DNA from: Chitinophaga deserti
GTDB taxonomy: Bacteria > Bacteroidota > Bacteroidia > Chitinophagales > Chitinophagaceae
DNA length: 64,000 nt
Assembly (NCBI RefSeq): GCF_003149455.1
Contig: NZ_QFFK01000001.1
Coordinates: 186,001 to 250,000, forward strand
Reading direction: 5' to 3'
Of the stretch, positions 34,562-64,000 are shown in pieces. The first letter of the stretch is position 1; each line of letters begins with the position of its first letter. The notes under the pieces were generated by a model. The model was not told where the DNA came from and ran no database searches. It was given only the letters and a program-made list of their open reading frames with translations. The position numbers were made by a program, and so were the translations under genes.

Positions 34562-34625
34562 CACATGACATTTACATGACCATCTGAGTGGCTATTGCAT
34601 GGCTTCTGATTGCCATCAAATACGG

Positions 34626-36703: not shown

Positions 36704-36928
36704 CAAATAGTTCGCCTGCTGCCATAATATTGCAGGACTGCGGCGTAATTTAGAGGCGAATCCTATTTAAGCAAAACAGTACTGTTTATTCGTTAACCTT
36801 TAAACCAATACCCGCGAATGATGTGATTTTTCAACTTTTTTAGACACAGACACAGTGAAGTCTCAATTCCATACCAGGACACATTCGTTAACAACATTTA
36901 CAATTTAGCTTAAACCCCCTGTTGATCC

Positions 36929-37207: not shown

Positions 37208-37563
37208 AGGAGTCAGCATTATTTTATCGTCACCAATGCGCCGGTTAACAATCAATTAACTCCCGTGTGCATCCCTAAAAGCTATTTTGTTGCCGTATTC
37301 ATACCACGGCAACAAAGTAGCTTTTTGCCGTTTTGACTACTCCGTCTGACATCCGAATTCACACATCCGGCAGTTGCTTTTCCCCATTATTAATTGCATG
37401 AGCGGGTTTCTTTTCAGTTACCGGCCTGCAATTTTTTCTGAGAGGAGGCGCCTGTCCAGCGATATATCGATTTATTTATAACGCGGTTAAGATCAAACGA
37501 TCTACTTAGATGCTTAGACAATGCGGGTTTCTTTTCAGTCACCTGCCCCTTCCCAAACCGCTG
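37208..37563. other. 356-bp intergenic stretch with hairpin and short direct repeat
   Basis: No gene is supported. It contains the long hairpin at 37277-37326 and a 17-bp direct repeat, GCGGGTTTCTTTTCAGT, at 37402-37418 and 37523-37539. The rest is unremarkable A+T-rich DNA. Confidence 0.6.
37277..37326 (+). terminator. Strong terminator after the small HTH gene
   Basis: A 19-bp stem (AAAAGCTATTTTGTTGCCG with the complement ending GTAGCTTTT, one T-G pair) and an 11-base loop end with five Ts. The minus strand also has a T run, so it may act both ways. Confidence 0.85.
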
Positions 37564-38109
37564 TCACTTTCCCTGTGCCCAATCCTCTTCCTGCCAAACC
37601 TGCCCCGGTTGCCAGGCCGGCCCTTTCGCATAGGCAAATCGCCTGTTGGCGCCCAACAGCTTCACCACCCGTTTATCATCGGCTGCAAAGTGCCAGATGT
37701 ACTGCGCCTTCTCTTTCCCACTCTTCTGCCGCACCGGTATTAACATCAGCTCCAGTATCCCGCCCTCACTTCTTGTCACCTTTACATCCATCCCCCAGTC
37801 CGGCGCATCATTCATCTCTACCGCCAGTAAAAAATCTTTTCCGTAACGCATAGGAAACGCCTGCTTCTGTAAAATGGGATAAGCAGATGCGATGCAATTG
37901 TTCACATCCGAACTGTCTTTCAATACATATACGTTGAAGTCACCACGCCCTTTACCTGCGGCCAGTGTATCGCTGTATGCAGGGTTACCGCATGGTGCCA
38001 GATAGCGGTAATCGCCAACAGCAACGTATGAAATATCGGGTATCCCTGACCTGGGAGCGTTGCTATGGCAGGAAACAAGTACCCACAACAAAGGGAGATA
38101 AACACGCAT
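37564..38109 (-). CDS. Hypothetical lipoprotein
   Basis: A 181-residue protein that begins MRVYLPLLWVLVSC with a short signal peptide and a lipobox (Cys14), so it should be anchored to a membrane. The mature part (DISYVAVGDYRYLAPC..., FNVYVLKDSSDVNNCIASAYP, MRYGKDFLLAVEMNDAPDW) has no motif that I recognise. The frame is open for 41 more codons upstream, but that stretch overlaps the divergent GH95 gene's start and codes for a basic, leaderless peptide, so ATG 38109 is chosen. It is divergent from GH95 with a 114-bp gap. Function unknown. Confidence 0.72.
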   Translation of the reverse strand: MRVYLPLLWVLVSCHSNAPRSGIPDISYVAVGDYRYLAPCGNPAYSDTLAAGKGRGDFNVYVLKDSSDVNNCIASAYPILQKQAFPMRYGKDFLLAVEMNDAPDWGMDVKVTRSEGGILELMLIPVRQKSGKEKAQYIWHFAADDKRVVKLLGANRRFAYAKGPAWQPGQVWQEEDWAQGK

Positions 38110-38223
38110 CCGGTAATTTACGAAGAAGCCGCCATTCGTAAGTGTTGATGCCATTTTATCTTTTCCCGTTGCTGCTTTACCACACGCTTTCTTTTTAGCT
38201 GTAATCCGGTTATATTTAAACAT

Positions 38224-40647
38224 ATGAACCACGTGCTACTCCCGGCCCTGATGGCCGTATCCATTGCAGCAACCGCCCAGCAGCGGACTGATCAGACACT
38301 TTACTTCGATAAGCCCGCCAATTATTACCAGGAGGCCCTCCCATTGGGGAACGGCACCCTCGGTGCCCTGATTTATGGCGGCCCGGTGCGCGACCGCATT
38401 TCTCTGAACGAAATCAGTTTATGGTCCGGCGGTCCGCAGGAAGCTGACAACGATACTGCTTACCGCATCCTCCCCCGCATCCGTGAATCACTCCTTGCAG
38501 GTCGTAACAAGGAAGCACAAACACTCCTGCAGCAGTACTTCATCTGTAAAGGCAAAGGCTCGGGTCATGGCAATGGCGCCAATGTTCCCTTTGGCTGTTA
38601 TCAGACCTTTGGTGACCTCACCCTCAACTGGAAGGATACCACCGCACCTTTCAGCGCATACCGCCGTACACTCGACCTCTCCACCGCCGCAACACGTACC
38701 ACCTGGCAGCGTAACGGCATCACATACACGCAGGAAGCCTGGATAAGCGCCCCTGCCAATGTACTGGCCGTGCGCATCACTTCCTCCAGGAAAGGCGCAG
38801 TTTCCTTCACCGCCGCCCTTTCCCGCCGCGAGAAAGCTGCCACCCGTTCCGAAAACGGATTCCTCATCATGGAAGGGCAACTTAATAACGAGAAAGAACC
38901 GGGAATGCGCTTTGCCGGAGCACTCTCCGCGCAGCTCACCGGTGGCCGTAGCACTGCTTCTGCGGATGGACTCACCATTGAAAATGCAGATGCCGTTACT
39001 CTTTATTTTTCCGCAGCAACAGATTATAATAATACCGACTTCCGCCAGCGTGGTCCGGCTCCGTTACCCGTTGTGCTTACACGCCTCAATGGTGTGAAAG
39101 GCAAATCGTATGATGCACTCCGCAAAGCACAGCAGCAGGCGCACCAGGCATATTATAACCGCAGCTCTTTTACACTGGCGGCTAACGCTGCCGGTGCCAA
39201 TGCACTCACTACTCCGGAAAGGCTCCGCCGTTATTTCGATGGCACACCCGATCCGCAGTTGCCTGTTCTGTATTACAACTATGGCCGGTACCTGCTCATC
39301 GGCTCATCGCGCCCCGGCTTCCTCCCTGCCAACCTGCAGGGCCTCTGGGCACCAGAGTATCAGACACCCTGGAACGGAGATTATCATATCGACATCAACC
39401 TCCAGATGAACTATTGGCTGGCACCCATCACCGGCCTCGACGAACTCTCCGAACCGCTTCACCGCTATATCCGCCTGCTGTCTAACGAAGGTACCCGTAC
39501 AGCGAAAGCGTATTACAATGCCCCCGGTTGGGTGGCGCATGTGATCGCTAACCCCTGGGGCTTTACATCGCCCGGCGAAGGGGCCGACTGGGGCTCTACC
39601 CTCACCGGCGGTGCATGGCTATGCGAACACATTTGGGAGCATTTCCGCTTTACACGCGATACTGCTTTCCTCCGCGAATATTATCCGGTATTAAAAGGCT
39701 CGTCTGACTTCCTGCGTGCCATCCTTATCCGCGAGCCGGAGCATGGCTGGCTGGTAACAGCGCCTTCCAACTCGCCTGAGCACAGCTTCATTATGCCCGA
39801 TGGTACCCGTGCCAGCACGGCAATGGGCCCTACCATCGACATGCAGATCTGCCGCGAACTCTTCGGCGCATCCATTGAAGCATCGCGCATCCTGAATACC
39901 GATGCCTCCTGGCGTAAGGAAATGGACAGTGTGCGTGCACAACTGGCGCCGAACCAGATCGGTAAAAAAGGAGACATCAACGAGTGGCTGCACGACTGGG
40001 AAGATAACGAGCCCCACCACCGCCACGTTTCCCATGCATACGCCTTGCATCCTTATGATGAAATCACTCCCTGGAAAACGCCTGAGCTGGCGGCAGCCAT
40101 GCGCGAAACTCTCCGCCAGCGTGGTGATGATGGTACCGGATGGTCGCTCGCGTGGAAGATTAACTTCTGGGCACGCCTGCAGGATGGAGATCATGCCCTT
40201 GGCCTGATTCACAAGCTGCTGCGCCCGGTAGATCCCGCCAATGCACGCGGAGGCGGATCTTATCCCAACCTCTTCTGTGCCCACCCTCCCTTCCAGATTG
40301 ATGGTAACTTCGGTTTCACCTCCGGTGTGGCGGAAATGCTGCTGCAAAGTCATGGCGACTCCACCGTTATCCGCTTCCTCCCCGCTCTCCCTACCGAAGC
40401 CGGATGGCAGCAGGGCAGTGTGAAAGGGCTCAGGGCACGCGGGGGCTTTGCTGTGGATATGGACTGGAAAAATGGCGCTATCGCTACCGCGAAGATCCGT
40501 TCCCTCAAAGGCGGTCCCTGTGCTGTGGTAGTACCTGCCGGCAAATCAGTTTACAATGCCAAAGGCGTAGCCGTTTACAAGGCTCAAAACGCAGCCCGGC
40601 AAACCTCGTTCCCCACGGTGAAAGGGGCAGTATATTCCATCCGCTGA
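38224..40647 (+). CDS. GH95-family alpha-L-fucosidase, second copy
   Basis: An 807-residue exported enzyme (signal peptide [19 protein letters not shown]). GH95 features include [58 protein letters not shown] (read in parts), the acid-containing [49 protein letters not shown] and [11 protein letters not shown]. It is similar in plan to the copy at 23.9-26.5 kb, though not an exact duplicate, and is read the opposite way, alone, with a perfect terminator after it. It may recognise another fucose linkage or an alpha-L-galactosyl unit. A TATATTTA box at 38211-38218 may serve as -7. Confidence 0.92.
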
Positions 40648-47655: not shown

Positions 47656-49881
47656 TCAGGGTTTCAGCTCAAATTTTACTTCCTGCACATCGCGGCTGTT
47701 GGGGCCTGCCTGTAAGCGAAATTCACCAGGTTCCGCTACATAACGCATGTTACGGTCATAGAATTTGAGGTCTGCAGCAGTAATCTCGAAGCGTACCTCC
47801 TGCTTTTCTCCCTTTTTGAGGAATATCTTTTTGAAGCCGCGCAACTCCTGCAGTGGCCGGTTTACGCTGGCCGTAACATCGCGCAGGTACAGTTGCACCG
47901 TTTCATACCCATCGTACCCGCCGGTATTGGTAACAGTTATTGAAGCGCGGAGGCTACCGTTCATGGCCATAGTATTTGCACTTAGCTGCAGTGGTCCATA
48001 TTCGAATGTAGTATAGCTGAGACCAAAGCCAAAGGGGAACAATGGATCGTTGGCAACATCGAGGTATTTGGAGGTGTATTTATTATTGGCATCCAAGGGG
48101 CGGCCGGTATTTTTCCGGTTGTAGTAGATGGGTATCTGCCCTACATTCCTGGGAAAGGTCATCGTCAGTTTACCGGATGGATTGAACTTTCCTAAAAGCA
48201 CATCCGCAATGGCATGCCCAGCCTGCGTACCACCAAACCAGGTAACGAGAATAGCTGGTACATGTGCGTTTTCCCATTCCAGTGTAAGCGGCCTTCCGTT
48301 GAAGAGGGTTAGCACCACAGGTTTACCGGTTTGCAGCACCGCTTCCAGTAATCGCTTCTGCGAAGCCGGGATTCCTATATCCGACCTGCTGGCAGCTTCT
48401 CCACTCATACCCTGCGACTCTCCCAGTGCCATTACCACCACATCTGCACCCCGACCCCGTACCACATCCAGTGCTTCCTTCAGCATGGCATCTTCATCTC
48501 CTACCTGTAAACCCAGCTTACCCATCAACTGCGCATCGCTGGTTACCTGCGCACCCTGTGCATATGTTACTGTTATACCAGCTTCTTTCAGTCCCTGCAG
48601 TAAAGTGACAGACTTCTTGTAATCCCCCGCGGCAGACCAGTTGCCGATCATATCCCGCTGCGAATCTCCCAGTGGTCCTATCAGCGCCACTTTAACACTT
48701 TGCTTCAGGGGCAATACCTGTCCTTCGTTCTTTAATAAAACGACAGACCGTTGCGCAGTTTCGCGGGCAACCTGCAAATGTTCCGGCCGCATGTTAACAC
48801 TTGCAGCGCGCTGGGTATCACAATACCGGTACGGGTCCTGAAACAGGCCCAGTTTGTATTTGGCTTCCAGCACTCGGTATACGGCATCATCGATCAGCTT
48901 AACCGGTATTTTCTTATCCGTTACGAGCTTCTTCAGCTGGGTGGCATATACGCTGCCCTGCATATCCATATCTACCCCGGCCTTCAATGCCAGTTCTGCT
49001 GCCTCGTATTCATTCTTCACGATTCCATGAGGGATCATTTCGTTGATAGACGTGTAGTCTGTTACCACAAACCCTTTAAAGCCCCATTCTTTGCGCAGCA
49101 ACTCTGTGAGCAGCCAGCGGTTACCGGTTGCAGGAATACCGTCGACTTCGTTGAAAGATGTCATGGCCGTGGCAGCGCCGGCTTCTACTGCAGCCTTGTA
49201 AGGCGGGAGGTAGTACTGGTACATCTGACGGCGGCTCATGTCTACAGTATTGTAATCCCTGCCCGCTTCTATGGCGCCATACAGGGCAAAGTGCTTTACA
49301 CAGGCGAGAATGGTATTGGTGGCAGCAAGATCGTTGCCCTGGTAGCCGCGTACCTTTACCCTGGCAATTTGTTCTCCCAGCCAGGTATCTTCCCCTACAC
49401 CTTCCGCTACACGCCCCCAGCGGGGATCACGGGCAATATCCACCATGGGGGAATAAGTCCAGTGGAGCCCATCGGCACTCGCTTCTTCTGCTGCAATGCG
49501 TGCGGTTTTCTCCATCAGCGGGAGGTCCCAGGTACAGGCTTCACCTAAAGGGATGGGGAAAATGGTTTTATGTCCGTGGATAACATCGTACCCGAATAAC
49601 AGGGGGATCTTCAGCCGGGTTTTCATGGCCATGTCCTGCAGCATACGGGTATATTGGGGAGTATATGCGTTGAAAATGGCACCGCAGGCACCACTGAGGA
49701 TATCCTGTTTGTAATTCTCCTTCATAAACGGACCAGTAACGTCCATATCGCTGGTCAGGAGGTTCAGCTGACCGATCTTCTCATCGAGGGTCATCCGCTG
49801 GATCAGAGAGGTCAGTAAGCGCTGTTGCTGCGCGTTAGCCGCGCTGCCTGCCAGCAGCAATAGGGCGAGGATGCATTTCAT
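47656..49881 (-). CDS. GH3-family beta-glucosidase
   Basis: A 741-residue exported glycosidase (signal peptide about 1-17, ending ANAQ). The GH3 N-terminal barrel includes GYDVIHGHKTIFPIPLG, SPMVDIARDPRWGRVAEGVGED and the nucleophile Asp275 in GFVVTDYTSIN; the sandwich domain follows with DVVVMALGESQGMSGEA, and a fibronectin-III-like domain ends the protein (LFPFGFGLSYTTFEY... GYDGYETVQLYLRD). It is similar in plan to BglX-type enzymes that cut terminal beta-glucose from oligosaccharides. The stop abuts that of the REC-CRP regulator (convergent). A terminator-like hairpin ends exactly at its start codon, so expression may be attenuated. It is the last gene of locus 2. Confidence 0.95.
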   Translation of the reverse strand: MKCILALLLLAGSAANAQQQRLLTSLIQRMTLDEKIGQLNLLTSDMDVTGPFMKENYKQDILSGACGAIFNAYTPQYTRMLQDMAMKTRLKIPLLFGYDVIHGHKTIFPIPLGEACTWDLPLMEKTARIAAEEASADGLHWTYSPMVDIARDPRWGRVAEGVGEDTWLGEQIARVKVRGYQGNDLAATNTILACVKHFALYGAIEAGRDYNTVDMSRRQMYQYYLPPYKAAVEAGAATAMTSFNEVDGIPATGNRWLLTELLRKEWGFKGFVVTDYTSINEMIPHGIVKNEYEAAELALKAGVDMDMQGSVYATQLKKLVTDKKIPVKLIDDAVYRVLEAKYKLGLFQDPYRYCDTQRAASVNMRPEHLQVARETAQRSVVLLKNEGQVLPLKQSVKVALIGPLGDSQRDMIGNWSAAGDYKKSVTLLQGLKEAGITVTYAQGAQVTSDAQLMGKLGLQVGDEDAMLKEALDVVRGRGADVVVMALGESQGMSGEAASRSDIGIPASQKRLLEAVLQTGKPVVLTLFNGRPLTLEWENAHVPAILVTWFGGTQAGHAIADVLLGKFNPSGKLTMTFPRNVGQIPIYYNRKNTGRPLDANNKYTSKYLDVANDPLFPFGFGLSYTTFEYGPLQLSANTMAMNGSLRASITVTNTGGYDGYETVQLYLRDVTASVNRPLQELRGFKKIFLKKGEKQEVRFEITAADLKFYDRNMRYVAEPGEFRLQAGPNSRDVQEVKFELKP

Positions 49882-49964: not shown

Positions 49965-51356
49965 TTATTGTTCCGGCCAGTTGTCTGTCCGGAACGGACT
50001 AACCGGCAGGCCTTCTTTACTGAAGATGTTACCGATTCCAGCGTTGCTGAAAGCGAAACGCACTGCCTCCGGCTGGGTTATTCCTTTACCGGACACCGTT
50101 ACTGTATTGCCTTTTACCTTCACATCTGCAGGTACAAATTTCTTATCGGCTCCTGCGATGTACCATTCTTTAGCCGCCCCTTTCAGCATCAGGCCATTGT
50201 CTGCATGCCTGAAATGGATGATGATCTGGTTGTTCTTCTTCTCCATCCTGTCGAATTGCGGGCTTTTGAAGGCAATACCCTGCTTTCCGTAATGATCACC
50301 CAGTGCCAGGTTAGCCAGTCGCAGGCCTACATCATGTTTATTGATGGGGTGGATGTTTGTGGTATCATCTACCAGATCGGAGATTACAACCATACCCGTT
50401 TTAGGATACGACAGCGTTTGCTCCTGGGATTCTCTCAACAGGGCACCTTTTACCGTGCCGGCACCGTATGTGAACGGAGCTATTTGCACATAATAGAAAG
50501 GGAAATCTATTCCCCATGCCTTCCGCCAGGAGCCAATCATAGTCTCCATCAGCGGCTTGTAGGTGGCGGCAGTACCCGTATTACTTTCACCCTGGTACCA
50601 GATAGCTCCCGCAATGCGGTAGTTGGTGAGCGGGGCAATCATAGCGTTGTAGGTTTTACCGGCCACATGCGGGCGGTATCCGTTTACGCCCTGCTTAGCA
50701 GCAGCTGCTGCAAGTTGAGGGGCGCCGGTCACCAGCTCAGCAGGCGTCCACACCTCTGCAGGAGTACCTCCCCAGCTGGAATTGATGAGCGCTACAGGCA
50801 CGCCCAGCTTCTTACGCAGCTCTTTGCCAAAGAAGTAGCCTATGGCACTGAAAGGTTTAAGCGTAGTGGAATCGCAGGATGTCCATTTACCAGGCACATC
50901 GTCCTGCGGACTATTGGAGGTGATTTTAGGGACCTGGAAGAAGCGCAGCTGATCGTCTGCACAGGTAGCCAGTTCGGCTTTAATATCGGGCAGGCCGTGG
51001 TTACCGCTCCATTCCATGTTCGACTGGCCGCTGCATACCCAAACTTCCCCGATGAGGATGTTCTTCAGCTCTATCGTATTCCAGCCACGCAGTTTTATGG
51101 TATAAGGCCCGCCAGCGTCGGGAGTTTTGATCTTTACGCTCCAAACGGAGTTGCCGGAAGAAACGGCTGAGTCAGGAGTGGATTTCCAGGATGCCTGAAT
51201 ACGGATCTTTTCTCCCGGCGAAGCCCAGCCCCAAAGCAGGGCAGAATCGTTCCGCTGGAGAACCATATTATCGGAAAGCACATCCGGCAGGCGGATCTGT
51301 GCGCTGGCAACGACGTGGAAACCGGCCAGAACGGTCATCATAAAATAGCGAAGCAT
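49965..51356 (-). CDS. SASA-family (sialate O-acetylesterase-like) carbohydrate esterase
   Basis: A 463-residue exported esterase (signal peptide about 1-20, ending VASAQ). The catalytic block VWVCSGQSNMEW holds Ser112 (GQSNM), followed by the ALINSSWGGTPAEVW and AIWYQGESNTG motifs and a C-terminal GDxH-like stretch; the SASA family removes acetyl groups from sugars. Despite the name, sialic acid is not implied; in utilisation loci it often deacetylates xylans or other glycans. It lies between the metallophosphoesterase (70 bp downstream of that gene's end) and GH3. A weak palindrome AAATAG...CTATTT precedes it. Confidence 0.92.
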   Translation of the reverse strand: MLRYFMMTVLAGFHVVASAQIRLPDVLSDNMVLQRNDSALLWGWASPGEKIRIQASWKSTPDSAVSSGNSVWSVKIKTPDAGGPYTIKLRGWNTIELKNILIGEVWVCSGQSNMEWSGNHGLPDIKAELATCADDQLRFFQVPKITSNSPQDDVPGKWTSCDSTTLKPFSAIGYFFGKELRKKLGVPVALINSSWGGTPAEVWTPAELVTGAPQLAAAAAKQGVNGYRPHVAGKTYNAMIAPLTNYRIAGAIWYQGESNTGTAATYKPLMETMIGSWRKAWGIDFPFYYVQIAPFTYGAGTVKGALLRESQEQTLSYPKTGMVVISDLVDDTTNIHPINKHDVGLRLANLALGDHYGKQGIAFKSPQFDRMEKKNNQIIIHFRHADNGLMLKGAAKEWYIAGADKKFVPADVKVKGNTVTVSGKGITQPEAVRFAFSNAGIGNIFSKEGLPVSPFRTDNWPEQ

Positions 51357-51426: not shown

Positions 51427-52332
51427 TTACAATCCGTGCGGGAAATACCTGTTTTCCAGGGTTCCGTCTTTATAGAGTTTCAGGATGGCGTAGCCGGGAG
51501 GCGTCTCCTGATAAAAGTATGGTCCTGCGGAGTCTTTATCTCCCTTACCCCACCAAAAGCCGCTCATGGCCCCGTTACAGGCGTAGGTAATACCGTTGTA
51601 CACCGTATTGTCTGACAGGTGGTTATGACCACTGAGGCATAGGCGCACCCGGTTGGTTTTGTAGAACAGGTTCTTCAAAGCCTTACAATCGGAATGTCCG
51701 CCGCCTTCCAGCACCTGTGTGGTACCTAAAATGGGGTAATGGGAAGTCATTACTGCAAAATCCCCTTCCGGCAGCGCTTCCAGTTTCCCTTTCAGCCAGG
51801 TAAACTGCTCTTCGTCCAGCGAAATGTTTTTGTTATTGCCATCCAGCATAAAGAAGTGCCAGTTCCCCTTCTGCACGGTATAATAGCGGTTAGGAGTGCC
51901 GAGGCGCTTTACCACATAGGATTTGCCATACATATCATCCTCTTTGGAGGGTGCTTTCCACCACATGTCGTGGTTACCGAGGCAGGAATGGATCTCGTAC
52001 TTCCCGATGGTTTTGATACAATCATCCCATATTGCCCACTGGGCAGTTACCTGATCGCGCACCACGTTGTCGTAAGATGCATCGTGGATGGAATCGCCGG
52101 TATTGAGGAAGAAGTCGGGCTTATGCTCCCTGATGATATTGCCGAGAACTTTTTTGAAACGTGCGGGCGCATCATCACCTTCACGGATATGCACATCGGT
52201 AATATGGGCCACGGTAAGCACGGGCTTGCCCTTTGCCGGTGCTTTCTCCCTTTCGCCGCCTCCGGTTAGGCCATCGGTCACGGAAGCGCCTGCAAGCAGC
52301 CCTATACTGGATAAAAAGTCTAATCTGTTCAT
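51427..52332 (-). CDS. Secreted calcineurin-like metallophosphoesterase
   Basis: A 301-residue exported enzyme with an N-terminal hydrophobic leader (residues 6-24). The five metallophosphoesterase blocks are all present: DVHIRE (Asp46, His48), NTGDSIHD, LGNHDMWW, MTSHYPIL and SGHNHLS. A binuclear metal site and hydrolysis of a phosphoester are therefore expected. It is part of locus 2 but has a separate promoter and a nearby inverted repeat, so it can be expressed apart from SusC/SusD. In a glycan-degrading locus it may remove phosphate groups from a modified polysaccharide, but the substrate is unproven. Confidence 0.9.
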   Translation of the reverse strand: MNRLDFLSSIGLLAGASVTDGLTGGGEREKAPAKGKPVLTVAHITDVHIREGDDAPARFKKVLGNIIREHKPDFFLNTGDSIHDASYDNVVRDQVTAQWAIWDDCIKTIGKYEIHSCLGNHDMWWKAPSKEDDMYGKSYVVKRLGTPNRYYTVQKGNWHFFMLDGNNKNISLDEEQFTWLKGKLEALPEGDFAVMTSHYPILGTTQVLEGGGHSDCKALKNLFYKTNRVRLCLSGHNHLSDNTVYNGITYACNGAMSGFWWGKGDKDSAGPYFYQETPPGYAILKLYKDGTLENRYFPHGL

Positions 52333-52459: not shown

Positions 52460-52846
52460 TTAGAGCGTTACCTGGAAACGCTGGTAATCCACCCAGTTAC
52501 CATTGTCATTGTAATACACGTCGATGTAACGGGTAGTACCACAATCCGCCTTGAACATTACACCGCCTACGTTTTCGTGAACCAGGCCGGAAGTTCCTGC
52601 ATAAGTGTAAATGGCACATCCGTCTGCGCTTTCCACTTTAAACTTCGCACCTACGAAAGCTCCGTTGTACTTAAACTGTACAGATTTTACGTAAGGGGAA
52701 GGAGGAGCAGGAGCAGCCACCATAGTGATAGTACCTCCGCCGAGCGCGATTTCTTTCGCGGCGGGTGTTTCTGCTGAAGGGGCCGGGGCATTCGTCATTC
52801 CGAAAAAGCCCATCATTACGGCGATTGCTGTGATTTTGAGGATCAT
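52460..52846 (-). CDS. Small secreted protein of unknown function, locus 2
   Basis: A 128-residue exported protein (signal peptide about 1-20, MMGFFGMTNAPA). The mature part after a proline- and alanine-rich stretch (VAAPAPPSPYV) looks like an all-beta domain: VKSVQFKYNGAFVGAKFKVES, YTYAGTSGLVHENVGG, CGTTRYIDVYYNDNGNWVDYQRFQV (read in parts), with two cysteines (CAIY, DCGT) that may form a disulfide. I do not recognise the family. It starts 32 bp after SusD and is followed by a terminator, so it is cotranscribed with SusC/SusD. A glycan-binding role is an inference from that position alone. Confidence 0.8.
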   Translation of the reverse strand: MILKITAIAVMMGFFGMTNAPAPSAETPAAKEIALGGGTITMVAAPAPPSPYVKSVQFKYNGAFVGAKFKVESADGCAIYTYAGTSGLVHENVGGVMFKADCGTTRYIDVYYNDNGNWVDYQRFQVTL

Positions 52847-52877: not shown

Positions 52878-54671
52878 TCAATCCCAACCGAACAACTGTT
52901 TCAGGTTCGGGTTCATACTGGTTTCTGAGAAAGGAACCGGGTAGTAGTAAAACTTAGGCTCCGCGAAAGTCCGGGCAGTAGTACCCGTTACGATCCTGCC
53001 GCCAGCTTCCCCGTTTTCCAGATAAATAGCAACACCCGGTTCGGCATAGTTGCCGGTTTTGTAATAAATAAGGGTTACACCGAGAGAGTTTTTAATTTTC
53101 TCGCTATCGGGGGGGATAGCCGTGTTTTTCGAAATCAGGATAACATCTGCAACACCATCCCCCGTGAGGTCGTACTGACCAAGGCCTGGGAAATACATAC
53201 CGAGGGGAATTATCTGCAGGCGTTTTCCGGCATACCAGCGCATGATATCATCATACCGGTATCCTTCCATAGCCAGCTCCACCCTTCTTTCCCTGCGCAC
53301 TTCCAGTATCAGGCCTTTATTAGCCCCCTGTACTGCAGGGTATTGTGCTGCCAGCACTGGATCAGGATCTCCATTAGCGGCAGCCATATTCAGGCCGGGC
53401 ATATTCACACGGCCACGAAGCAGCCCTATGCTATTATCTATATCCGTTTGTGTTGCAGTTCCCATTTCCGCGACCGCTTCAGCATAGGTGAGCAATACCT
53501 CTGCGTATCGGATAGAAGGCACATCGGTGCTGCCGATCACCTGACCGTCTGTACTGAAGTTGAAGTAACCTTTCAGCTGATGGTAGCCGGTGAAGTTATT
53601 GGAGAACGTTTGTACATAAGGACGCGTGGCTGGCAGCCTAACGAAACCGGGAGGTACGATGGTAAATCCAAGGCGCGGATCACGGTCCGTAAATTCCTCC
53701 ACGAAGCCAAACTGGTTGTAATTCGGCTTATCAGTGAAACGGGTACCGTCTTTCATCAGGAAGGTCTGCACCAGATCGCGTGAGGGCGATTGTTCATAAT
53801 CCCCGAACACTGTGCTGTTATTATTGGCACTGGAGCCTCCTTTCTTCGTTACGTCATAAGGACAATTCAGGATTACTTCCTTGCTGCCGCTGAGGTCGAG
53901 ACTGTTGAAGTTATCGCTGAATTTAGCGGCCAGTGTGAATTTACCGGAGTTCATTACATCCAGCGCCTGCTTCCTTGCTGAATCGAGGAAACGGTTAGCG
54001 GTGGCAGCAAGGTTCAGCTCAGGGTGATACTTTCTGAACGTACCTTCATACAATGCGATCCTTGCATATGTTGCTTTTACCGCCCAGAGGCCCGGTGTAC
54101 CTGAGGGAACGCTTTCCTTTACGTTCTGCGATGCAAACACCAGATCTGCGATCACACTGTCCATCACCTGGGCACGTGGTGTGCGGGGGGCATAGAGCAA
54201 TGCGGTATCGGAAGGATTAAGGGTTCTCCCATACCAGGGCACATCGGAGTACGTTTTGATTTTATCCATGTAGAACATGGCACGATAATACCTGGCGAGG
54301 CCTGCATAATGGTTCTTTACATCGTCAGTAACCTTTGCCTGCTGGTAGTTCTCGAGGAAGTAATTAATGTTGCGCAAACGGCCCCAGCTCCATGCACTCG
54401 GCATATTCCTGGAATTGGGAGTACTCGTCATCATGTTGATGATCGTCTGGTTGCCGGTGGTAGCACAGTTGTCGGTACCCTGCTCACTGAGGTAAATGCC
54501 CGAGCCGGAATGATTCAGCAGCCCGAAGATGTACATGCTCAGATCACTTTCCGATTTAAAGAACAGCTGTGGCGATACCGATGTGGTGGGGTACCTGTTG
54601 AGGAAGTCCTTTTTACATGCGCTCCCTGCAAAAGCACCCGCGGCGAGTATAGCGATGATAATTTTTCTCAT
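52878..54671 (-). CDS. SusD/RagB-family lipoprotein, locus 2
   Basis: A 597-residue lipoprotein (lipobox GSAC, Cys19) with the SusD helices: KKDFLNRYPTTSVSP at the start, RNINYFLENYQQAKVTDD, LARYYRAMFYMDKIKTYSDVPWYGR, then RYAEVLLTYAEAVAEMGT and EVRRERRVELAMEGYRYDDIMRWYAG. It is about 100 residues longer than the SusD of locus 1, because of extra loops that may bind a larger or different glycan. It starts 27 bp after SusC. A terminal tail with FGWD is typical of the family. Confidence 0.95.
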   Translation of the reverse strand: MRKIIIAILAAGAFAGSACKKDFLNRYPTTSVSPQLFFKSESDLSMYIFGLLNHSGSGIYLSEQGTDNCATTGNQTIINMMTSTPNSRNMPSAWSWGRLRNINYFLENYQQAKVTDDVKNHYAGLARYYRAMFYMDKIKTYSDVPWYGRTLNPSDTALLYAPRTPRAQVMDSVIADLVFASQNVKESVPSGTPGLWAVKATYARIALYEGTFRKYHPELNLAATANRFLDSARKQALDVMNSGKFTLAAKFSDNFNSLDLSGSKEVILNCPYDVTKKGGSSANNNSTVFGDYEQSPSRDLVQTFLMKDGTRFTDKPNYNQFGFVEEFTDRDPRLGFTIVPPGFVRLPATRPYVQTFSNNFTGYHQLKGYFNFSTDGQVIGSTDVPSIRYAEVLLTYAEAVAEMGTATQTDIDNSIGLLRGRVNMPGLNMAAANGDPDPVLAAQYPAVQGANKGLILEVRRERRVELAMEGYRYDDIMRWYAGKRLQIIPLGMYFPGLGQYDLTGDGVADVILISKNTAIPPDSEKIKNSLGVTLIYYKTGNYAEPGVAIYLENGEAGGRIVTGTTARTFAEPKFYYYPVPFSETSMNPNLKQLFGWD

Positions 54672-54698: not shown

Positions 54699-57600
54699 TT
54701 AAAGCGTCACGTTAACGCCCATGGAATATTTGCGCTGGAATGGATAGTTCCAGCCGTTTCCTGAAGTGATCGCTTCCGGATCGATATATTGCTTGATGGA
54801 TGAAAATTCGTACAGGTTCTCTCCCGTAAAGAAGATTCGGGCACGGGTAAGTCCAGCCCTTCCGATCCAGCGCTGTGGCAGGCTGTAACCGATGGTTAAG
54901 TTCTTAAGGCGGAGGTATGCTGCGCTTTGGAGATAGTTGGTCTGAGGAATGGCAAGCCCCTGCCCTGTACGCTGGTCTGCCAGCCAGGCTTGTAATGCAG
55001 GATAGCGTGGGTTCAGATTAGCTTCTGCCAGTCCGGCATCGATGTAAGCTTTGGGGTAAGTAGCACGCTCTGCTTCGGTAGCTGCACTGCCACGGTAGAA
55101 GTCCAGGTTCCAGGGATAGATGTTGGCATATGGCTGCTGATAAGGACCCCAGAAAAGATAGTTCTGCGGATAGTAATCCATTTTACCGATACCCTGGAAG
55201 AACAAGGCAAAGTCGATGTTATTCCAGCCGAGGTCGATATTGAAACCATACTGATAACGCGGACTGGTATTACCAATAATACTGAGGTCTTTAGCATCTT
55301 TAGTGCTGTTACCCGTTTCGATTTTACCGTTACCATCTTTGTCAAGATACTTAGGCCATCCCGGTACCACTTTCAGCGCGCTCCAGGGAATTATTGCAGA
55401 CTGATCCAGCTTATCGATCTCTCCCTGATTTTGGAAAAGCCCGTCGCTGGTGAGGCCCCATATTTCGCCTATCTCCTGTCCTACACGGTATCCGCTAAAG
55501 AAGCCCTGCGGATTATCGTAGCGGGTAATGGTGCTTCGGCTGTCCCACACACGGCCACGCACGGCGAGGCTCAGCGGTTTACCGCCTACGTTGAAATTAT
55601 TGTTGTACTCCACACCCAGCTCCCAGCCTTTGGTACGCATATCGGCAGCATTTTGCTGCGGAGCTCCGGTACCCAGTACTCCTGGCAATACGGATGCAGG
55701 CGCCAGCATACCGGTGGTATTACGGATGTAATAATCGGCACTGATGGTGATGCGGTTATTAAGGAAACCGAGGTCTGCCCCGAAGTTGGGGCCCGACACG
55801 TTCTCCCAGGTGTAGTTGTTAGGATCAACACGCAGCGGAGGCGCCTGTCCTGCCACCATGGGGAAGTTGCCATTTACCAGATAGCCGCTGGTACGTACAG
55901 GCAGTGTCTGGATGTAGCCGTAATAATCCACAGACTGGTTGCCGAGCGTGCCTAAGCCGGCCCTTAACTTGAAAGTGGAAACAAGTGGAGCAATGCCTTT
56001 CCAGAAATTCTCGCGGCTCACGATCCACGCACCGGAGAAAGACGGGTAGGATGCCCAGCGGTCTGCCGGCGGGAATCGCGACGAGCCATCTGCACGTTGT
56101 GTATACTTCAGCATATATTTCCCTTTGAAGGTATAATCTACACGGCCGAAGTAGCTGCGGATGGCGAAGTCATAATACCCGTTATTGCTTACACTCATGT
56201 CTCCGGTAGCAAGACTGAGGTGGGGCAACTGGGCCGATACCAGATTGTTTCTGCTGGCTGTTACCGGTGCCCACTGGTAATATTCCTGGTTATAGCCAAT
56301 TGTTACATTGAAATCGTGTTCACCGAGTTTCTTGCTATAGTTAGCGAAGATGTCATACACGTTCTGATTCACGGTGCCATTGGTTTCTGTTACGGAACTC
56401 GGTCCATTGATCTCGCGTACATCGCCCGGGCCATAGCCAATTTGCACAGGCAGGCTTTCCACATGATACTTCCAGAGCTCACGTTTTATGCTTGCAGAAC
56501 CGGTGATGGTAAGGTCGCCGTTAAGCATGGATGCTGTGCCACGCAGGAGGTTCTGGAACCCGAAACGTGTCTGGTTATTACGGCCACCGTCTTTCAGCTG
56601 AGCAGCTAAGATACCTGCGGTATTATTAGCCCAGGTACCATCAGGATTCTTATCCACGTTGATGGGCTGGGTGTAATACACATCCAGGAGGTTAAAGGTG
56701 GGCTGATCCTGCACCAGTTGGTAGATGTTGAAGTTATTTTCGACAGACAGCCATTTGAGGGGCTTCAGGCCTATGTTGGCACGCATGCCATAACGGTTCC
56801 AGTCGTCTTTCGCCAGCTTGTTCAAGCCATTCTCTTTGGTATAATCGGCAGACAGCAGGTAGTTCACCGGGTTCTTTCCTGAAGTGGCACCTGTCAACGA
56901 GACGTTATGATATTGCGAGAAGTTGGATTTCGCGAAGAAGTAATCGTTCCAGTCCTTGTTACCCATATAGGCCCATTTGGTGGGATCGTCTGGGTTGGTT
57001 TTAACATCGGGTACGGAAGGGTTCTCGGAACGTTGTTTTCCCCATTCATACTGCCAGGAAGTGAAGGTGGCATAATGCCACGGCGTATTATCGGCCGAAG
57101 TCTGCATCACTTTCATAAAAATGAACGGATCGGTGATCGGATCAGGGGTAAGTGTACGCTTGGATACTGCGAAATAGTTGTTGTAGGAGATGGATTGCTT
57201 TCCTTCTCCTTTTCCTTTGCGTGTATTGATGAGCAGTACACCAAAAGCAGCACGGGCGCCGTAGATAGCTGCAGAACTACCATCGCGGAGGGTGGTGATA
57301 GATTCAATATCGGTAGGATTGAGCCTCAGCAGATCGTCGTTAGTGGAAGCAATCCCGTCGATGAGGATGAGAGGTGAACCACCACCGCTGTTGATAGAGC
57401 CCATACCGCGGATGTTGAGGTTGGGCAGGCTGCCGGGCCGGCCGCCTGAATAAGTGATATTCAGGCCGGGAGAAGCTCCCTGCAGACCCTGGAATACGTT
57501 GGCGATAGGGCGCTCTGCGAGTTTGGCACCACTAATCTGATCCACCGCACCAGTTACATCAATTTTCTTTTGTGTACCATATCCTACTACTACCACTTCG

Positions 57601-57983
57601 TTCATGCTGGAACTGGAGGGCTGGAGCTGGAGAACAGACAGTGTATTATCGCCTGCTTTAAGCGAAAGCGCCTGTGTTACGGGATCGTAACCGATATAAG
57701 TGACGCGCAGCGTGTAACGGTCGCCCGGTTCAATGCCGGAGAAGGAGAAAGATCCGTCTGAAGCGGTAGCCGTTCCGGTTTTGAATGCCGGTTTATCGGC
57801 TGAAATGACGATGGTGGCTCCGGGAATTGGAGATCCCTGGCCGTCCTGCACTACGCCTTTCAGCGATGCTTTCCTGTTTTGAGCCTGTGCCGTGGCAGCC
57901 CAGGCGATGGCAAGGCACCACAGCAGCAGTCGGCTGCCAAAGCGTTTGGCCGGGACGCGCATACGGCGTACAATTTGTTTCAT
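54699..57983 (-). CDS. SusC/RagA-family TonB-linked outer-membrane transporter, locus 2
   Basis: A 1094-residue outer-membrane transporter. The start is ATG 57983 (MKQIVRRMRVPAKRFG), with a signal peptide ending ATAQAQ; a frame extension of 26 codons is not supported. The carboxypeptidase-like domain (ASLKGVVQDGQGSPIPGATI), TonB-box region (MNEVVVVGYGTQKK), plug (GSPLILIDGIASTNDD, DGSSAAIYGARAAFGVLLINTRKG) and barrel ending in SMGVNVTL are present. With the SusD beside it, it should take up oligosaccharides. A leader of about 380 bp separates the -7 box at 58364 from the start. A TetR operator overlaps the promoter. Confidence 0.95.
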   Translation of the reverse strand: MKQIVRRMRVPAKRFGSRLLLWCLAIAWAATAQAQNRKASLKGVVQDGQGSPIPGATIVISADKPAFKTGTATASDGSFSFSGIEPGDRYTLRVTYIGYDPVTQALSLKAGDNTLSVLQLQPSSSSMNEVVVVGYGTQKKIDVTGAVDQISGAKLAERPIANVFQGLQGASPGLNITYSGGRPGSLPNLNIRGMGSINSGGGSPLILIDGIASTNDDLLRLNPTDIESITTLRDGSSAAIYGARAAFGVLLINTRKGKGEGKQSISYNNYFAVSKRTLTPDPITDPFIFMKVMQTSADNTPWHYATFTSWQYEWGKQRSENPSVPDVKTNPDDPTKWAYMGNKDWNDYFFAKSNFSQYHNVSLTGATSGKNPVNYLLSADYTKENGLNKLAKDDWNRYGMRANIGLKPLKWLSVENNFNIYQLVQDQPTFNLLDVYYTQPINVDKNPDGTWANNTAGILAAQLKDGGRNNQTRFGFQNLLRGTASMLNGDLTITGSASIKRELWKYHVESLPVQIGYGPGDVREINGPSSVTETNGTVNQNVYDIFANYSKKLGEHDFNVTIGYNQEYYQWAPVTASRNNLVSAQLPHLSLATGDMSVSNNGYYDFAIRSYFGRVDYTFKGKYMLKYTQRADGSSRFPPADRWASYPSFSGAWIVSRENFWKGIAPLVSTFKLRAGLGTLGNQSVDYYGYIQTLPVRTSGYLVNGNFPMVAGQAPPLRVDPNNYTWENVSGPNFGADLGFLNNRITISADYYIRNTTGMLAPASVLPGVLGTGAPQQNAADMRTKGWELGVEYNNNFNVGGKPLSLAVRGRVWDSRSTITRYDNPQGFFSGYRVGQEIGEIWGLTSDGLFQNQGEIDKLDQSAIIPWSALKVVPGWPKYLDKDGNGKIETGNSTKDAKDLSIIGNTSPRYQYGFNIDLGWNNIDFALFFQGIGKMDYYPQNYLFWGPYQQPYANIYPWNLDFYRGSAATEAERATYPKAYIDAGLAEANLNPRYPALQAWLADQRTGQGLAIPQTNYLQSAAYLRLKNLTIGYSLPQRWIGRAGLTRARIFFTGENLYEFSSIKQYIDPEAITSGNGWNYPFQRKYSMGVNVTL

Positions 57984-58363
57984 AGTTTGTGTTTTACAGT
58001 AAAGAAGATTACGTGGTGGCCGGACCAGGCCTTTTGGAACGTGCAGGCATACGCACGCCACTCCATCCGTAGACGGAAGCCCTTCCCGTATTGTGTTTCA
58101 TGTGATTACTATAGATCGTGTATTAAGTGGCACCTGCTTTCTTCCGGACATACCAATCCCTTTCCGGCAACTGGTGTACCGGCAGACCGGATATTCCGGC
58201 AAACAATTTCCCCGGCCGCATACTGCAGCTAAACGCGGCGAAAAAACTGTTGTGTTTTCCTTAATTAATTCGTTGTTCTTATTCTTTCGGCTTGCTTATT
58301 CACACAGCCCCGGCTGTTTGCCTGCGGACCCTTCGCTCTTCGTTCATCTAATTACCCGGGGGA

Positions 58364-58371
58364 CAAATATA
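58364..58371 (-). promoter_or_regulatory. -7 box of locus 2 susC
   Basis: On the minus strand TATATTTG, a full TAnnTTTG match, lies about 380 bp upstream of the susC start. The nearest TTG (58389-58387) is 15 bp away, short of the usual 17-23, so the -33 may be weak and dependent on the operator state. Confidence 0.55.
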
Positions 58372-58372
58372 G

Positions 58373-58390
58373 ATTGAATGATTATTCAAT
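58373..58390. promoter_or_regulatory. TetR-type operator O1 at the susC promoter
   Basis: ATTGAAT-GATT-ATTCAAT is a perfect 7-bp inverted repeat. Its core TTGAATGATTATTCAA shares 13 of 16 bases with O2, including both arms. It abuts the -7 box of susC, so binding would block that promoter. Confidence 0.7.
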
Positions 58391-58471
58391 TAAATAGTCA
58401 TTTTGATTGATAACGGTTAAGTAACATTAGCGACTTCTCTACAAATATAAAATTGAAAATGAAAAAACAAA

Positions 58472-58499
58472 AATATATTGAATGAACGTTCAATATATT
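58472..58499. promoter_or_regulatory. TetR-type operator O2 upstream of the regulator gene
   Basis: AATATATTGAA and TTCAATATATT are perfect 11-bp arms around TGAACG, with TGAACGTTCA as an inner palindrome. The core TTGAATGAACGTTCAA has the same length and arms as O1. It lies 128 bp before the TetR ATG, a likely autoregulation site. Confidence 0.75.
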
Positions 58500-58626
58500 T
58501 ATAATCCCACAGCAGCTTAGAGAGGATGGTTCGTTAATTTAACACAGAATATTATCAGCTTTTGTCGGTAATTTCCCGGTTAACTGCTAGTTTTACATTA
58601 ACCTAATCACCAGTTTTTGCGAACAA

Positions 58627-59211
58627 ATGGGAAGAAAGAGTTTAAAAGAGCCTCGGCAGAAAGAGATTATCAAAGCGTTCTATAAGATCGTTAAAAAGGA
58701 AGGACTGGAAAATGCCTCCATCCAGAAGATCGCGGAAAGCATCCAGATAAATCCCAGCCTCATAATGCACTATTTCCGATCCCGGGAACACCTGGTTTAC
58801 GGGCTGGTAGAATTTATCCTCGACCGGTGGCTCCATATCTTCGATGTTAAAGATGCAGAAGATCCTATGGATGAACTCAGAGCTGTACTAGATAATGTAT
58901 TTTCTAAAAAGTGGAACTCCCTGTTCGATGATGGCACTTCCTATTCCCTTTACTCCCTCGCCTTCAGGAATAAAACCATACGCCAGCGCTACAAGCACTT
59001 GCTTGATACACTACGGCAGCGTCTTGCGGAAATGATCGCGGCTTGTAATAAAACAAAGCAGCTGACCGTGAAAGATCCAGCAGCTGCGGCCGATATTATT
59101 TTCGTACTGGTAGATGGAGCTTACTATTACCTTTCGTTAGTAGACGATAAGGCGGAGTACGACCTGAGGCTGGCCGTATACAAACAACATGCGCTGAAGG
59201 TGCTTAATTAA
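58627..59211 (+). CDS. TetR/AcrR-family transcriptional regulator
   Basis: A 194-residue regulator with an N-terminal TetR HTH (about 10-58: RQKEIIKAFYKIVKKEGLENASI, QKIAESIQINPSLIMHYFRSREHL, read in parts) and an all-helical ligand-binding half (about 60-194) with WLHIFDV and YYYLSLVDDKAEYDL. It is divergent from susC. Two matching operators in the gap suggest it represses locus 2 and itself, and that a sugar-derived or small molecule relieves it. Locus regulators of this type are usually AraC, HTCS or ECF systems, so TetR is unusual. It overlaps the next gene's end by eight bases. Confidence 0.9.
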   Translation: MGRKSLKEPRQKEIIKAFYKIVKKEGLENASIQKIAESIQINPSLIMHYFRSREHLVYGLVEFILDRWLHIFDVKDAEDPMDELRAVLDNVFSKKWNSLFDDGTSYSLYSLAFRNKTIRQRYKHLLDTLRQRLAEMIAACNKTKQLTVKDPAAAADIIFVLVDGAYYYLSLVDDKAEYDLRLAVYKQHALKVLN

Positions 59212-59611
59212 CTCCCCGCCGCCTGCGTACCAGCAGCCATATTATGGCTCCCACGGCAATTACAAGCCATATGAAATTGACAACAAAACTGGGGTAATCA
59301 CTCAGGTATAAGGCATTAGCAATGAGGCCTACTGCACCCAGTGCATTCAGCCAGTGATATATTCTCTGGTCAGACTTTATTTTACCCATTGTCAGCAGTA
59401 CATAACCCAGCACATAAAAGAAAGTGCCTGCCCAGCCGGGAATATCCATCCATGATATACTGCTTTCCTGTACTGTTTCAACCCGCTTCAATACAGCTTG
59501 CTCCTGGCCGCCAGCAACTGACGCCATTACCTGCTGACGGCCCCTGCCGCCAATCTGAAAGGCTCCGCACATAATCAGCAGGCCCAGGCTCAACACTATG
59601 AATTTTCCCAT
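59204..59611 (-). CDS. Small integral membrane protein of CBU_0592-like type
   Basis: A 135-residue protein with an N-terminal hydrophobic segment (4-18) and three more membrane helices in the C-terminal half, with the features of the CBU_0592-like membrane domain: DIPGWAGTFFYVLGYVLL, DQRIYHWLNALGAVGLIANAL, FVVNFIWLVIAVGAI, followed by a basic RRRRG tail. Function is not known. It is convergent with the TetR gene (eight-base overlap at the ends), and a 103-bp gap separates it from the outer-membrane protein on its 5' side. Confidence 0.8.
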   Translation of the reverse strand: MGKFIVLSLGLLIMCGAFQIGGRGRQQVMASVAGGQEQAVLKRVETVQESSISWMDIPGWAGTFFYVLGYVLLTMGKIKSDQRIYHWLNALGAVGLIANALYLSDYPSFVVNFIWLVIAVGAIIWLLVRRRRGVN

Positions 59612-61735: not shown

Positions 61736-64000
61736 TCAATATTGTACCGTCACGGTTCTCCCGCCTCTGCCAGATTGGTCGAAAACTCTCAAACGGAAGG
61801 TACCTTTCGCATCAAGCGGGCCGCTCCAGGCGGGACTTTTAGCATTGGGCTCCTTCCCATCGGTTGTATAACGAATGATCAGTCCGGGAAGTTGTACGTT
61901 GGCCAAAACTTTTCCGTTCTCCTGTTTCACTCCAGCGGTAGGAATCCGGTAATTATAACCGCCGTTGAGACTGGCGAGGCGGGGCAGCTCACGCTGGCCC
62001 ACCACATTGGCGAATTTATTCCACGCTTCGTTGTACAGATTGAGGTCGCCCGTCCAGGAGGGGTCGGGCGCCCAGGCACGTTCCGCCATGCCCAATAGCT
62101 TGGGAAGCACCATATACTCCAGACGCTCAGGTGATTTTACCGTTTCACTCCAGAGCGCAGACTGAATACCCGCAATATTGGAAGCACCGTATTCAGTCAG
62201 CCTGTCTTTTCCAACAAAAATTGATGCAGGTAAAGGATTGCCTGCATCGTCTTCTTTGGCGTTTTTATACAGATCGAGGGGAATGAAATAGTACGGCTTA
62301 TCGATATCCACATACCCGCCCCAGTAAAACCCTGGTTCATCGTAATCGCGGAGGTATGCCATATCGAAATAGTAGTTGGCTACGCCGGACAGTACCACTT
62401 TGTATCCCCCGTTGGCCAACCGGTAGCTGAGATCTTCCATTCCGCCGCCCATTACGTTGTTCCAGACATCTACCTGGAAATTACGGTTGCCGAACACCGG
62501 ATTTACAATCATAAGGCCCTGACCATCGCGACGGGTACGGCGCATACCAGCTTCCTCCCATCCATACAGCTGCATTCCCTGTTTATTAACGATCTGAGCT
62601 ACTTTATCATAAAAATAGATCCAAAGGTCGTCTACATGGTTAAGCTCTTCGCTTGAGGCGAGCAGCTGCTGGCAGGCGGGAGATTTTTCCCATACCCCAC
62701 CGGGCGTTTCATCCCCACCCATATGAATAATATCGAGCGGAGTACCTGCTTCACGGTGCATGGCCGCCAGTTCGGCCGTCACTTTTTCAATGAACTTGTA
62801 AGTGGAAGGCAGTGCAGGATTCATCACATTATCTTTCCATTCCTGCACAGATCGGTAAGTGCTTTTATCTTCCGGATCGCTGAGGCGGTATTCTCCTGCA
62901 TTGGGGTCACCCGCTTTTGCGAGTTTTGCCGCCCGGGCGTCCATTGCTTTAATAGCAGCACGGCCATGACCGGGCATTTCCACTTCGGGAATCACTTTAA
63001 TATGCCTCGCCTTCGCGTAACGGAGGATTTCAATATAGTCAGCACGGGTATACCAACCGGTACCCGTAGCGTTATTTACATCAGGGCCCGAGCCATAGGA
63101 AGGACGGAGGAAATCCATCTCGTCAACAGTATGGCCACGGCGGCCACCTACCTGCGTTAGTTCCGGCAAACCGGCAATCTCTACACGCCATCCTTCATCG
63201 TCGCTCATGTGCAGATGCAGTGTATTTACTTTGTAAACTGACATTACATCCAGCATACGCAGCACTTCCGCTTTGGAATGGAAGTTTCTGGCCACGTCGA
63301 GACTGAAGGAGCGGAAAGCAAAACGAGGCTCATCTGATACCAGTATTACCGGCAGTGTGGCTGTACCCTTAGCAGTTAAGGGCAACAGCTGGCGAAGTGA
63401 CTGTATGCCGTAAAAGATCCCGGTAGCTGTACCCGCGGAAATTACCACACCGTTCTGGTCGATCTGCAGCCGGTAAGCTTCCTTACCCTTAATGCTAGCA
63501 TCCTTTAAAAGACGTACTCCGGCTACACCGGTAGTACCCTGTGCAGTAAGCACCTCCTTTCCGAACACTTTTCCCATCATCTTTGCCAGGTAATCAGCTT
63601 CTGCTCGGAACTCAGCCTCATATACGATACCGCTTTTCGGATCCAGTACAAATGTGCCTTCTGCTTCACGGACACTCAATGGCGTCGGTATTATTTTAGG
63701 CACTTCGGACAATGGCAACAGACGGATAGATTCGTTACGGCGGTAAACATCTTCCGGAGTGGATTGTACCTTGGTATCGTTCGCAGTACGGCGGAGTTGC
63801 TTCACTTCTTTGGAGGGCACCACGGTAAAATCTGTAATAGAATGCCCTTTGGATGGTTCAGTATCCCAAACTATGTAAGGCCCGGTAGGTGCATCTGTGA
63901 AATGGGTTACCCAGGCCGATGAAATGATGTTCAGCTTCAGGGAATCGCCGGATTTCAGCCCATTAAAGCCACCCGTAGGTTTAAACCAGAACAGATCTCC
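61736..64000 (-). CDS. Chitobiase-like GH20 beta-N-acetylhexosaminidase, 5' end outside window
   Basis: An open frame of 755 codons reaches the right edge with no start seen, so the N-terminus is missing. In visible residue numbers, the chitobiase N-terminal carbohydrate-binding domain covers about 1-75 (GDLFWFKPTGGF, SGDSLKLNIISSAW, APTGPYIVWDTEP), the GH20b domain about 95-225, and the catalytic barrel about 225-690. The catalytic pair Asp430-Glu431 lies in HMGGDETPGG, with the LHLHMSDDEGWRVEI motif before it. A CHB_HEX_C-type domain ends it (IIRYTTDGKEPNAKSPAW). It should remove terminal beta-GlcNAc/GalNAc from chitooligosaccharides or glycans. A GTG at 63823 is internal and is not the start. 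Confidence 0.92.
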   Translation of the reverse strand, partial: GDLFWFKPTGGFNGLKSGDSLKLNIISSAWVTHFTDAPTGPYIVWDTEPSKGHSITDFTVVPSKEVKQLRRTANDTKVQSTPEDVYRRNESIRLLPLSEVPKIIPTPLSVREAEGTFVLDPKSGIVYEAEFRAEADYLAKMMGKVFGKEVLTAQGTTGVAGVRLLKDASIKGKEAYRLQIDQNGVVISAGTATGIFYGIQSLRQLLPLTAKGTATLPVILVSDEPRFAFRSFSLDVARNFHSKAEVLRMLDVMSVYKVNTLHLHMSDDEGWRVEIAGLPELTQVGGRRGHTVDEMDFLRPSYGSGPDVNNATGTGWYTRADYIEILRYAKARHIKVIPEVEMPGHGRAAIKAMDARAAKLAKAGDPNAGEYRLSDPEDKSTYRSVQEWKDNVMNPALPSTYKFIEKVTAELAAMHREAGTPLDIIHMGGDETPGGVWEKSPACQQLLASSEELNHVDDLWIYFYDKVAQIVNKQGMQLYGWEEAGMRRTRRDGQGLMIVNPVFGNRNFQVDVWNNVMGGGMEDLSYRLANGGYKVVLSGVANYYFDMAYLRDYDEPGFYWGGYVDIDKPYYFIPLDLYKNAKEDDAGNPLPASIFVGKDRLTEYGASNIAGIQSALWSETVKSPERLEYMVLPKLLGMAERAWAPDPSWTGDLNLYNEAWNKFANVVGQRELPRLASLNGGYNYRIPTAGVKQENGKVLANVQLPGLIIRYTTDGKEPNAKSPAWSGPLDAKGTFRLRVFDQSGRGGRTVTVQY

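Follow-up and report, generated by a model that had tools for sequence, protein, structure and literature searches.

A predicted TetR regulon at a SusC/SusD-phosphoesterase locus of Chitinophaga

The common interpretation of SusCD systems is that they import sugars under the control of ECF sigma/anti-sigma factors or hybrid two-component regulators. The window analysed here, a stretch of 64,000 nucleotides, comes from a 6.33-Mb genome of the genus of Chitinophaga pinensis and contains a tetR gene divergent from a susC gene, with two palindromes between them. The question raised by this arrangement is whether the palindromes connect the regulator to the transporter genes and, if so, in which direction they act and in response to which kind of molecule. 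The connection of TetR, operators and SusC/SusD proposed by an earlier sequence-only reading is strongly supported by comparative evidence, namely site conservation, presence and absence of the site, and co-occurrence at the locus. The preferred explanation, at a probability of roughly 0.65, is that the local TetR, through the two operators, represses a divergent phosphoester-scavenging susC-susD-phosphoesterase operon until the regulator binds a product formed from the phosphoester that is taken up.

The locus and its two palindromes

The regulator gene is divergent from six genes, susC, susD, a gene for a 128-aa protein and those for a metallophosphoesterase, a SASA esterase and a GH3 enzyme. 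The features of the locus are as follows.

47656-49881, minus strand: GH3 beta-glucosidase (BglX equivalog)
49965-51356, minus strand: SASA-type carbohydrate esterase (PF03629), a gene kept by the two closest relatives
51427-52332, minus strand: calcineurin-like metallophosphoesterase (PF00149), the phosphoesterase of the locus
52460-52846, minus strand: protein of 128 aa whose N-terminus looks signal-like by eye
52878-54671, minus strand: susD (PF07980 and PF14322)
54699-57983, minus strand: susC, SusC/RagA TonB-linked outer-membrane protein, 1094 aa (TIGR04056, 725 bits, cut-off 368)
58364-58371, minus strand: TATATTTG, predicted to be the -7 box of P1, a susC promoter, in the 3-nt geometry, identical in both close relatives
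58373-58390, no strand: operator 1 (predicted from site identity and conservation), 7-bp arms
58442-58449, minus strand: TATATTTG, beginning 29 nt from operator 2 and predicted to be the -7 box of P2, a further promoter of susC
58471-58500, no strand: operator 2 (predicted from site identity and conservation), an inverted repeat of 30 bp whose arms measure 11 bp or more
58627-59211, plus strand: TetR-family regulator, 194 aa (TetR_N and TetR_C_37)
59204-59611, minus strand: small membrane protein of the CBU_0592 family, convergent with tetR

The 128-aa protein belongs to no family found in the profile scans and has matches in the two closest relatives only. The SASA esterase and the GH3 beta-glucosidase possibly share a transcript with the susC operon. 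Two further regions of the window were recorded in passing. Beyond the tetR side of the locus lies a GH20 beta-hexosaminidase with a chitobiase-type C-terminal domain (61736-63823). A second SusCD cluster (20863-40647; susD-like gene at 28115-29617, susC at 29628-32675, both assigned by eye) contains two alpha-L-fucosidases, two GH95 enzymes, a sulfatase, an alginate-lyase-family protein and a putative glucoamylase, and looks like a locus for a fucose-rich, sulfated glycan.

The two matched palindromes of the sequence-only reading lie where it placed them, and both are longer than it reported. Their cores, TTGAATGATTATTCAA (58374-58389) in operator 1 and TTGAATGAACGTTCAA (58478-58493) in operator 2, each occur once in the window, and they are unique in the genome by two patterns: TTGAATGANNNTTCAA matches operators 1 and 2 only, and TNNATTGAANNNNNNTTCAATNNA the same two places only. 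Operator 2 lies 133 bp from the tetR ATG. The inner palindrome TGAACGTTCA, previously singled out as typical of TetR sites, is real at 58483-58492 in operator 2 but is missing from operator 1. Conservation does not extend to it: of the 27 strict sites upstream of tetR in set 1 (defined below), 8 contain it. It was rejected as the recognition core, the constant part being the sequence that flanks the outer arms.

In the preferred explanation, a TetR dedicated to this one locus would bind both operators between tetR and susC and repress the susC-susD-phosphoesterase operon, and probably tetR as well, until it is released by a small molecule derived from the imported phosphoester. Operator 1 lies directly upstream of the susC -7 box, so that bound TetR would block RNA polymerase, and operator 2 precedes both the second susC-facing -7 box and tetR. 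The SusCD pair would import a phosphodiester-bearing substrate, to be cleaved by the linked phosphoesterase.

The regulator, the linked phosphoesterases and the likely substrate

The regulator is a member of the TetR family, with a TetR_N helix-turn-helix (PF00440, 28.6 bits, Pfam cut-off 24) and a TetR C-terminal domain (PF18665, 141 bits, cut-off 27). Its predicted model (pLDDT 90.3) has the all-helical TetR fold, and its best fold matches are TetR proteins, with 3crj at the top (Z 19.1, rmsd 2.6, 182 aligned residues). The protein is 98% identical to a TetR of C. pinensis isolate 3 and 90% identical to one of C. rhizosphaerae.

Putative orthologues, each taken as the best TetR match with similar neighbours, were collected in two sets. 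Set 1 comprises 28 loci of the family of the window, including its own and those of the two named relatives, and stems from a search with matches in 24 of 294 genomes (15 of 101 genera). Set 2 comprises 25 loci, 23 of them from one family in another order of the same class and two being distant TetR matches; the underlying search gave matches in 23 of 151 genomes (10 of 25 genera). Genes in the relatives were called by a simple ORF script, and loci within a set are related, so that the counts below do not represent independent events. Two set-2 loci, L075 and L076, were rejected as orthologues for their identity of 33-36% and their lack of both SusCD and a strict site; they are nevertheless kept in every set-2 denominator of 25. 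A CBU_0592-type gene is convergent with tetR in 15 of the 28 set-1 and 7 of the 25 set-2 loci and often overlaps the 3' end of tetR.

A phosphoesterase class is encoded near SusCD in 23 of the 28 set-1 and 23 of the 25 set-2 loci, as judged by blastp (E up to 1e-10) against reference proteins of the analysis itself, with only representatives checked by Pfam and NCBIfam. These representatives span four unrelated superfamilies: PF00149 (calcineurin-like), PF01663 (NPP-type), PF03372 (endonuclease/exonuclease/phosphatase-type, EEP) and PF04185. Members of the last include equivalogs of the phosphocholine-specific phospholipase C, PC-PLC, in four loci (751-785 bits, cut-off 580). The set-2 loci lacking a phosphoesterase are the two non-orthologues. 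Five set-1 loci show none, which counts against the preferred explanation: contig ends truncate L047 and L059, no phosphoesterase was recognised in L048 or L053, and for L044 the genes behind susD were judged by size and first residues only. The count for L093 is doubtful, given that its EEP gene lies only behind a non-adjacent SusCD. As a control, 20 of the at least 56 SusC loci of the host genome were examined, of which 13 were testable beyond susD, two had a susC-sized next gene and five had no gene after susD; blastp of up to five same-strand downstream genes gave a matching phosphoesterase in 0 of 20, and no phosphoesterase domain turned up when 20 genes of the 13 testable loci were scanned with Pfam. 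The SusC and SusD proteins of the loci fall into different subtypes, the SusD of the window having PF07980 and that of L013 PF12771, for example, so that the regulator and operator are constant and the transporter and enzyme vary. Next to the PC-PLC-type loci L039 and L056, downstream of tetR, lies a conserved protein that looks like a peptide- or oligomer-binding transporter component (SBP_bac_5-like, by eye; 84% mutual identity).

The strongest competing explanation accepts the regulator and differs in the substrate: TetR would control a true polysaccharide utilisation locus, in which the phosphoesterase plays a secondary part on a phosphate-bearing glycan (teichoic-acid-like or GPI-like). 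In the window, the SASA esterase and GH3 enzyme behind the metallophosphoesterase would suit a decorated glycan, which counts against the preferred explanation, and two EEP-type proteins bear a Laminin_G_3 domain. However, SASA and GH3, the CAZyme families covered in the relatives, appear to lie outside the conserved part of the locus, the former being matched only in the two closest relatives and the latter missing from the corresponding place in L010. Relatives usually have a phosphoesterase as the neighbour, in some cases PC-PLC, an enzyme that acts on a phospholipid. A glycan as the main substrate is judged unlikely, at about one chance in four.

The same enzymes bear on the ligand. A sugar is unlikely, as the enzyme kept beside TetR is a phosphoesterase and not a glycosidase. 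A phospholipid head-group such as choline is a speculative candidate, suggested by some likeness to BetI, the choline-sensing TetR protein: the best NCBIfam matches of the regulator are BetI models, PF13977 is above its cut-off (28.3 against 27), and the closest folds include 4kwa, co-crystallised with choline (Z 18.2, rmsd 2.9, 186 aligned residues, 13% identity), 7acm, a structure with TMAO, being a further fold match. However, the regulator falls short of both BetI equivalog cut-offs (NF001978, 54.3 bits against 118; TIGR03384, 53.1 against 201.3), and, in a further difference from BetI, none of the eight window proteins scanned is a choline oxidation gene product. Fold similarity does not establish function, and scores almost as high are common among TetR proteins; choline is therefore a candidate only. 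A relation to Bacillus FadR was also considered, since the operator half-site TGAATGA resembles FadR sites. The regulator scores 26.6 bits against a cut-off of 200 for the FadR equivalog NF053878, a weak similarity, and the genes scanned beside it encode SusCD and phosphoesterases rather than beta-oxidation enzymes. More tentatively, the loci in Chitinophagaceae and in the family of the other order may all be phospholipid or phosphodiester loci in which one TetR responds to a shared head-group product (perhaps choline, phosphocholine or a glycerophospho compound) while the subtype of SusCD has been exchanged, as has the class of phosphoesterase (metallophosphoesterase, NPP-type, EEP, phospholipase C); this generalisation is put at somewhat above one in three.

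Conservation of the operator and geometry of the promoters

A strict site was defined as TTGAA-N6-TTCAA, and an upstream site as one no more than 700 bp upstream of a putative tetR orthologue. Strict upstream sites are present in 22 of the 28 set-1 and 12 of the 25 set-2 loci; strict sites number 27 in the 19.6 kb upstream of tetR and one in the remaining 478 kb of set 1, and 13 in 17.5 kb and three in the remaining 418 kb of set 2. The motif thus occurs just four times in the remaining 896 kb of both sets, each time before a relocated susC (L044 at +986, L108 at +741, L109 at +802 and L110 at +2216). There it lies at most 280 bp before a susC that has lost its divergent orientation to tetR, and the site therefore follows susC. 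In L108-L110, the gene now divergent from tetR encodes a phosphodiesterase, and the site on the tetR side separates the two. The 13 set-2 loci without a strict upstream site count against the preferred explanation. When one mismatch is allowed, a site is found in 27 of 28 set-1 and 23 of 25 set-2 loci, a test that carries little weight because it is also positive for the non-orthologue L075. Locus L093, which keeps TetR and a one-mismatch site with no adjacent SusCD, likewise counts against that explanation. A divergent susC is present in 27 of 28 set-1 and 19 of 25 set-2 loci, that of L053 being a 97-aa fragment. L053 (genome G105) has the TetR gene and a strict operator beside this remnant and is apparently a decaying locus.

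Among 60 genomes of the genus, the site is present at the locus in all six with the TetR (E up to 1e-20, counting that of the window); the 54 without the TetR yield a loose match in four and the YRnnYR core in none. In 28 genomes with the TetR, the loose pattern occurs at 31 places, 28 of them at the TetR locus, in 23 genomes. Together with the presence and absence in the genus, this suggests that the regulon is apparently one locus per genome. A wider regulon was rejected: the off-locus sites in G152 and G305 have operator-unlike cores, and an extra site in G216 lies between convergent gene ends.

The consensus of 24 de-duplicated set-1 sites (near-duplicates L009, L014 and L015 excluded) is T(W)(W)ATTGAA-YR-nn-YR-TTCAAT(W)(W)A, the centre being mostly YG and CR; operator 1 deviates from this centre in one half. 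Besides the arms used in the search, no variation is seen at the T at -3, the A at 0 or the positions paired with them, and the A+T flanks outside the TTGAA/TTCAA arms are conserved. The operators of C. rhizosphaerae keep the arms and have different centres.

The -7 box of Bacteroidota has the consensus TAnnTTTG, unlike that of sigma-70. Operator 1 does abut the predicted susC -7 box, as had been read from the sequence, with TATATTTG at 58364-58371 on the minus strand and 2 nt between. Operator 2 faces susC too: TATTTTTG starts 3 nt and TATATTTG 29 nt beyond it. Across the 24 set-1 sites, the relaxed box [CT]AnnTTTG lies within 60 nt on the susC side of 20 (8% in shuffles), at 3 or 28-30 nt for 18, and on the tetR side of two. 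The relaxed form was picked after inspecting the site contexts, which counts against the preferred explanation; with the strict TAnnTTTG, the susC side has 8/24 and the tetR side 2/24 (about 5% in shuffles). An earlier proposal gave one operator to susC and the other to tetR. This division of roles is doubtful: most set-1 sites stand at fixed distances from a susC-facing box and few from a tetR-facing one, and four relatives have a site before the relocated susC. Sigma-70 consensus promoters were not a useful guide, with three in 57800-58800 against 1.7 expected in shuffles, as the Bacteroidota consensus differs. The susC leader from P1 (57984-58363) would have a length of about 370 nt, and part of it is conserved in C. 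rhizosphaerae; no RNA element of an Rfam family reached the gathering threshold in 57900-58700.

The 3-nt geometry argues for repression by promoter blocking, while the more distant geometries would leave room for activation. TetR could then use the same operators to activate susC from upstream of the promoter. In favour of this, a susC-facing -7-like box starts 28-30 nt beyond 14 of the 24 de-duplicated set-1 sites. In set 2 the geometry is looser, which counts against the preferred explanation: a box lies within 60 nt of only five of the 16 strict sites, once at 31 nt and four times at 42-46 nt, the latter at three relocated susC genes and L102. The site therefore frequently precedes the promoter core, a position that would also suit an activator, and boxes at 28-30 or 42-46 nt would place the operator centre near -47 or -61, by estimate. 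However, activation is the rarer mode among TetR proteins, and at operator 1 and the sites of L010, L044, L047 and L056, all 3 nt from the box, bound protein would block the promoter. Activation is accordingly rated at about one in five, slightly below the glycan alternative.

A further explanation is that the palindromes serve only the autoregulation of tetR, their proximity to susC being incidental. An operator ahead of the own gene is common for TetR genes, and operator 2 has this position; however, the moved susC genes of L044, L108, L109 and L110 carry a site in front, and the -7 boxes align on the susC side and hardly on the tetR side, which makes this explanation very improbable. Chance palindromes can be dismissed, for even though the intergenic region is A+T-rich and a one-mismatch match occurs in the non-orthologue L075, strict sites are more than 100-fold enriched upstream of tetR in both sets and thus in two orders.

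Comparison with known systems

The regulon proposed here predicts, from sequence alone, a substrate-induced uptake route for organic phosphorus, possibly phospholipid, and includes an exact operator, testable promoters and an apparently single-locus regulon. TetR and its operator would mark phosphoester SusCD loci among the at least 56 SusC genes of one genome. In its layout, with a divergent regulator, SusC, SusD and enzymes behind them, the locus resembles polysaccharide utilisation loci, with which it shares the SusC/SusD pair. However, among the families covered in the relatives, the recurring enzyme is a phosphoesterase rather than a CAZyme. TetR control of SusC/SusD had been called uncommon, which fits the literature found, as TetR proteins are 3 of the 29 regulators of alginate gene clusters in a passage of PMC7874173. 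The search of the open-licence literature, with subscription journals and preprints outside its scope, returned no description of the TetR-operator-SusCD arrangement.

The closest parallel is provided by the Pus systems of Flavobacterium (PusCD; PUSI and PUSII), described in sections of PMC8115612 as a SusC/SusD pair with phosphodiesterases. The window and its relatives share this feature, with SusC/SusD co-located with a phosphomono- or diesterase, and PusD1 is listed there with pf07980 and pf14322, the same families as the SusD of the window (PMC8115612). For PUSI, the same sections give a pair of predicted phosphodiesterases (CpdA by name, and another assigned to pf00149), as well as an ECF sigma factor and induction by phosphate depletion (PMC8115612). 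The term 'TetR' has no use in the main text of PMC8115612. The regulators therefore differ, an ECF sigma factor in PUSI as described in those sections and, as the constant neighbour here, a TetR with its own operators, which suggests induction by the substrate.
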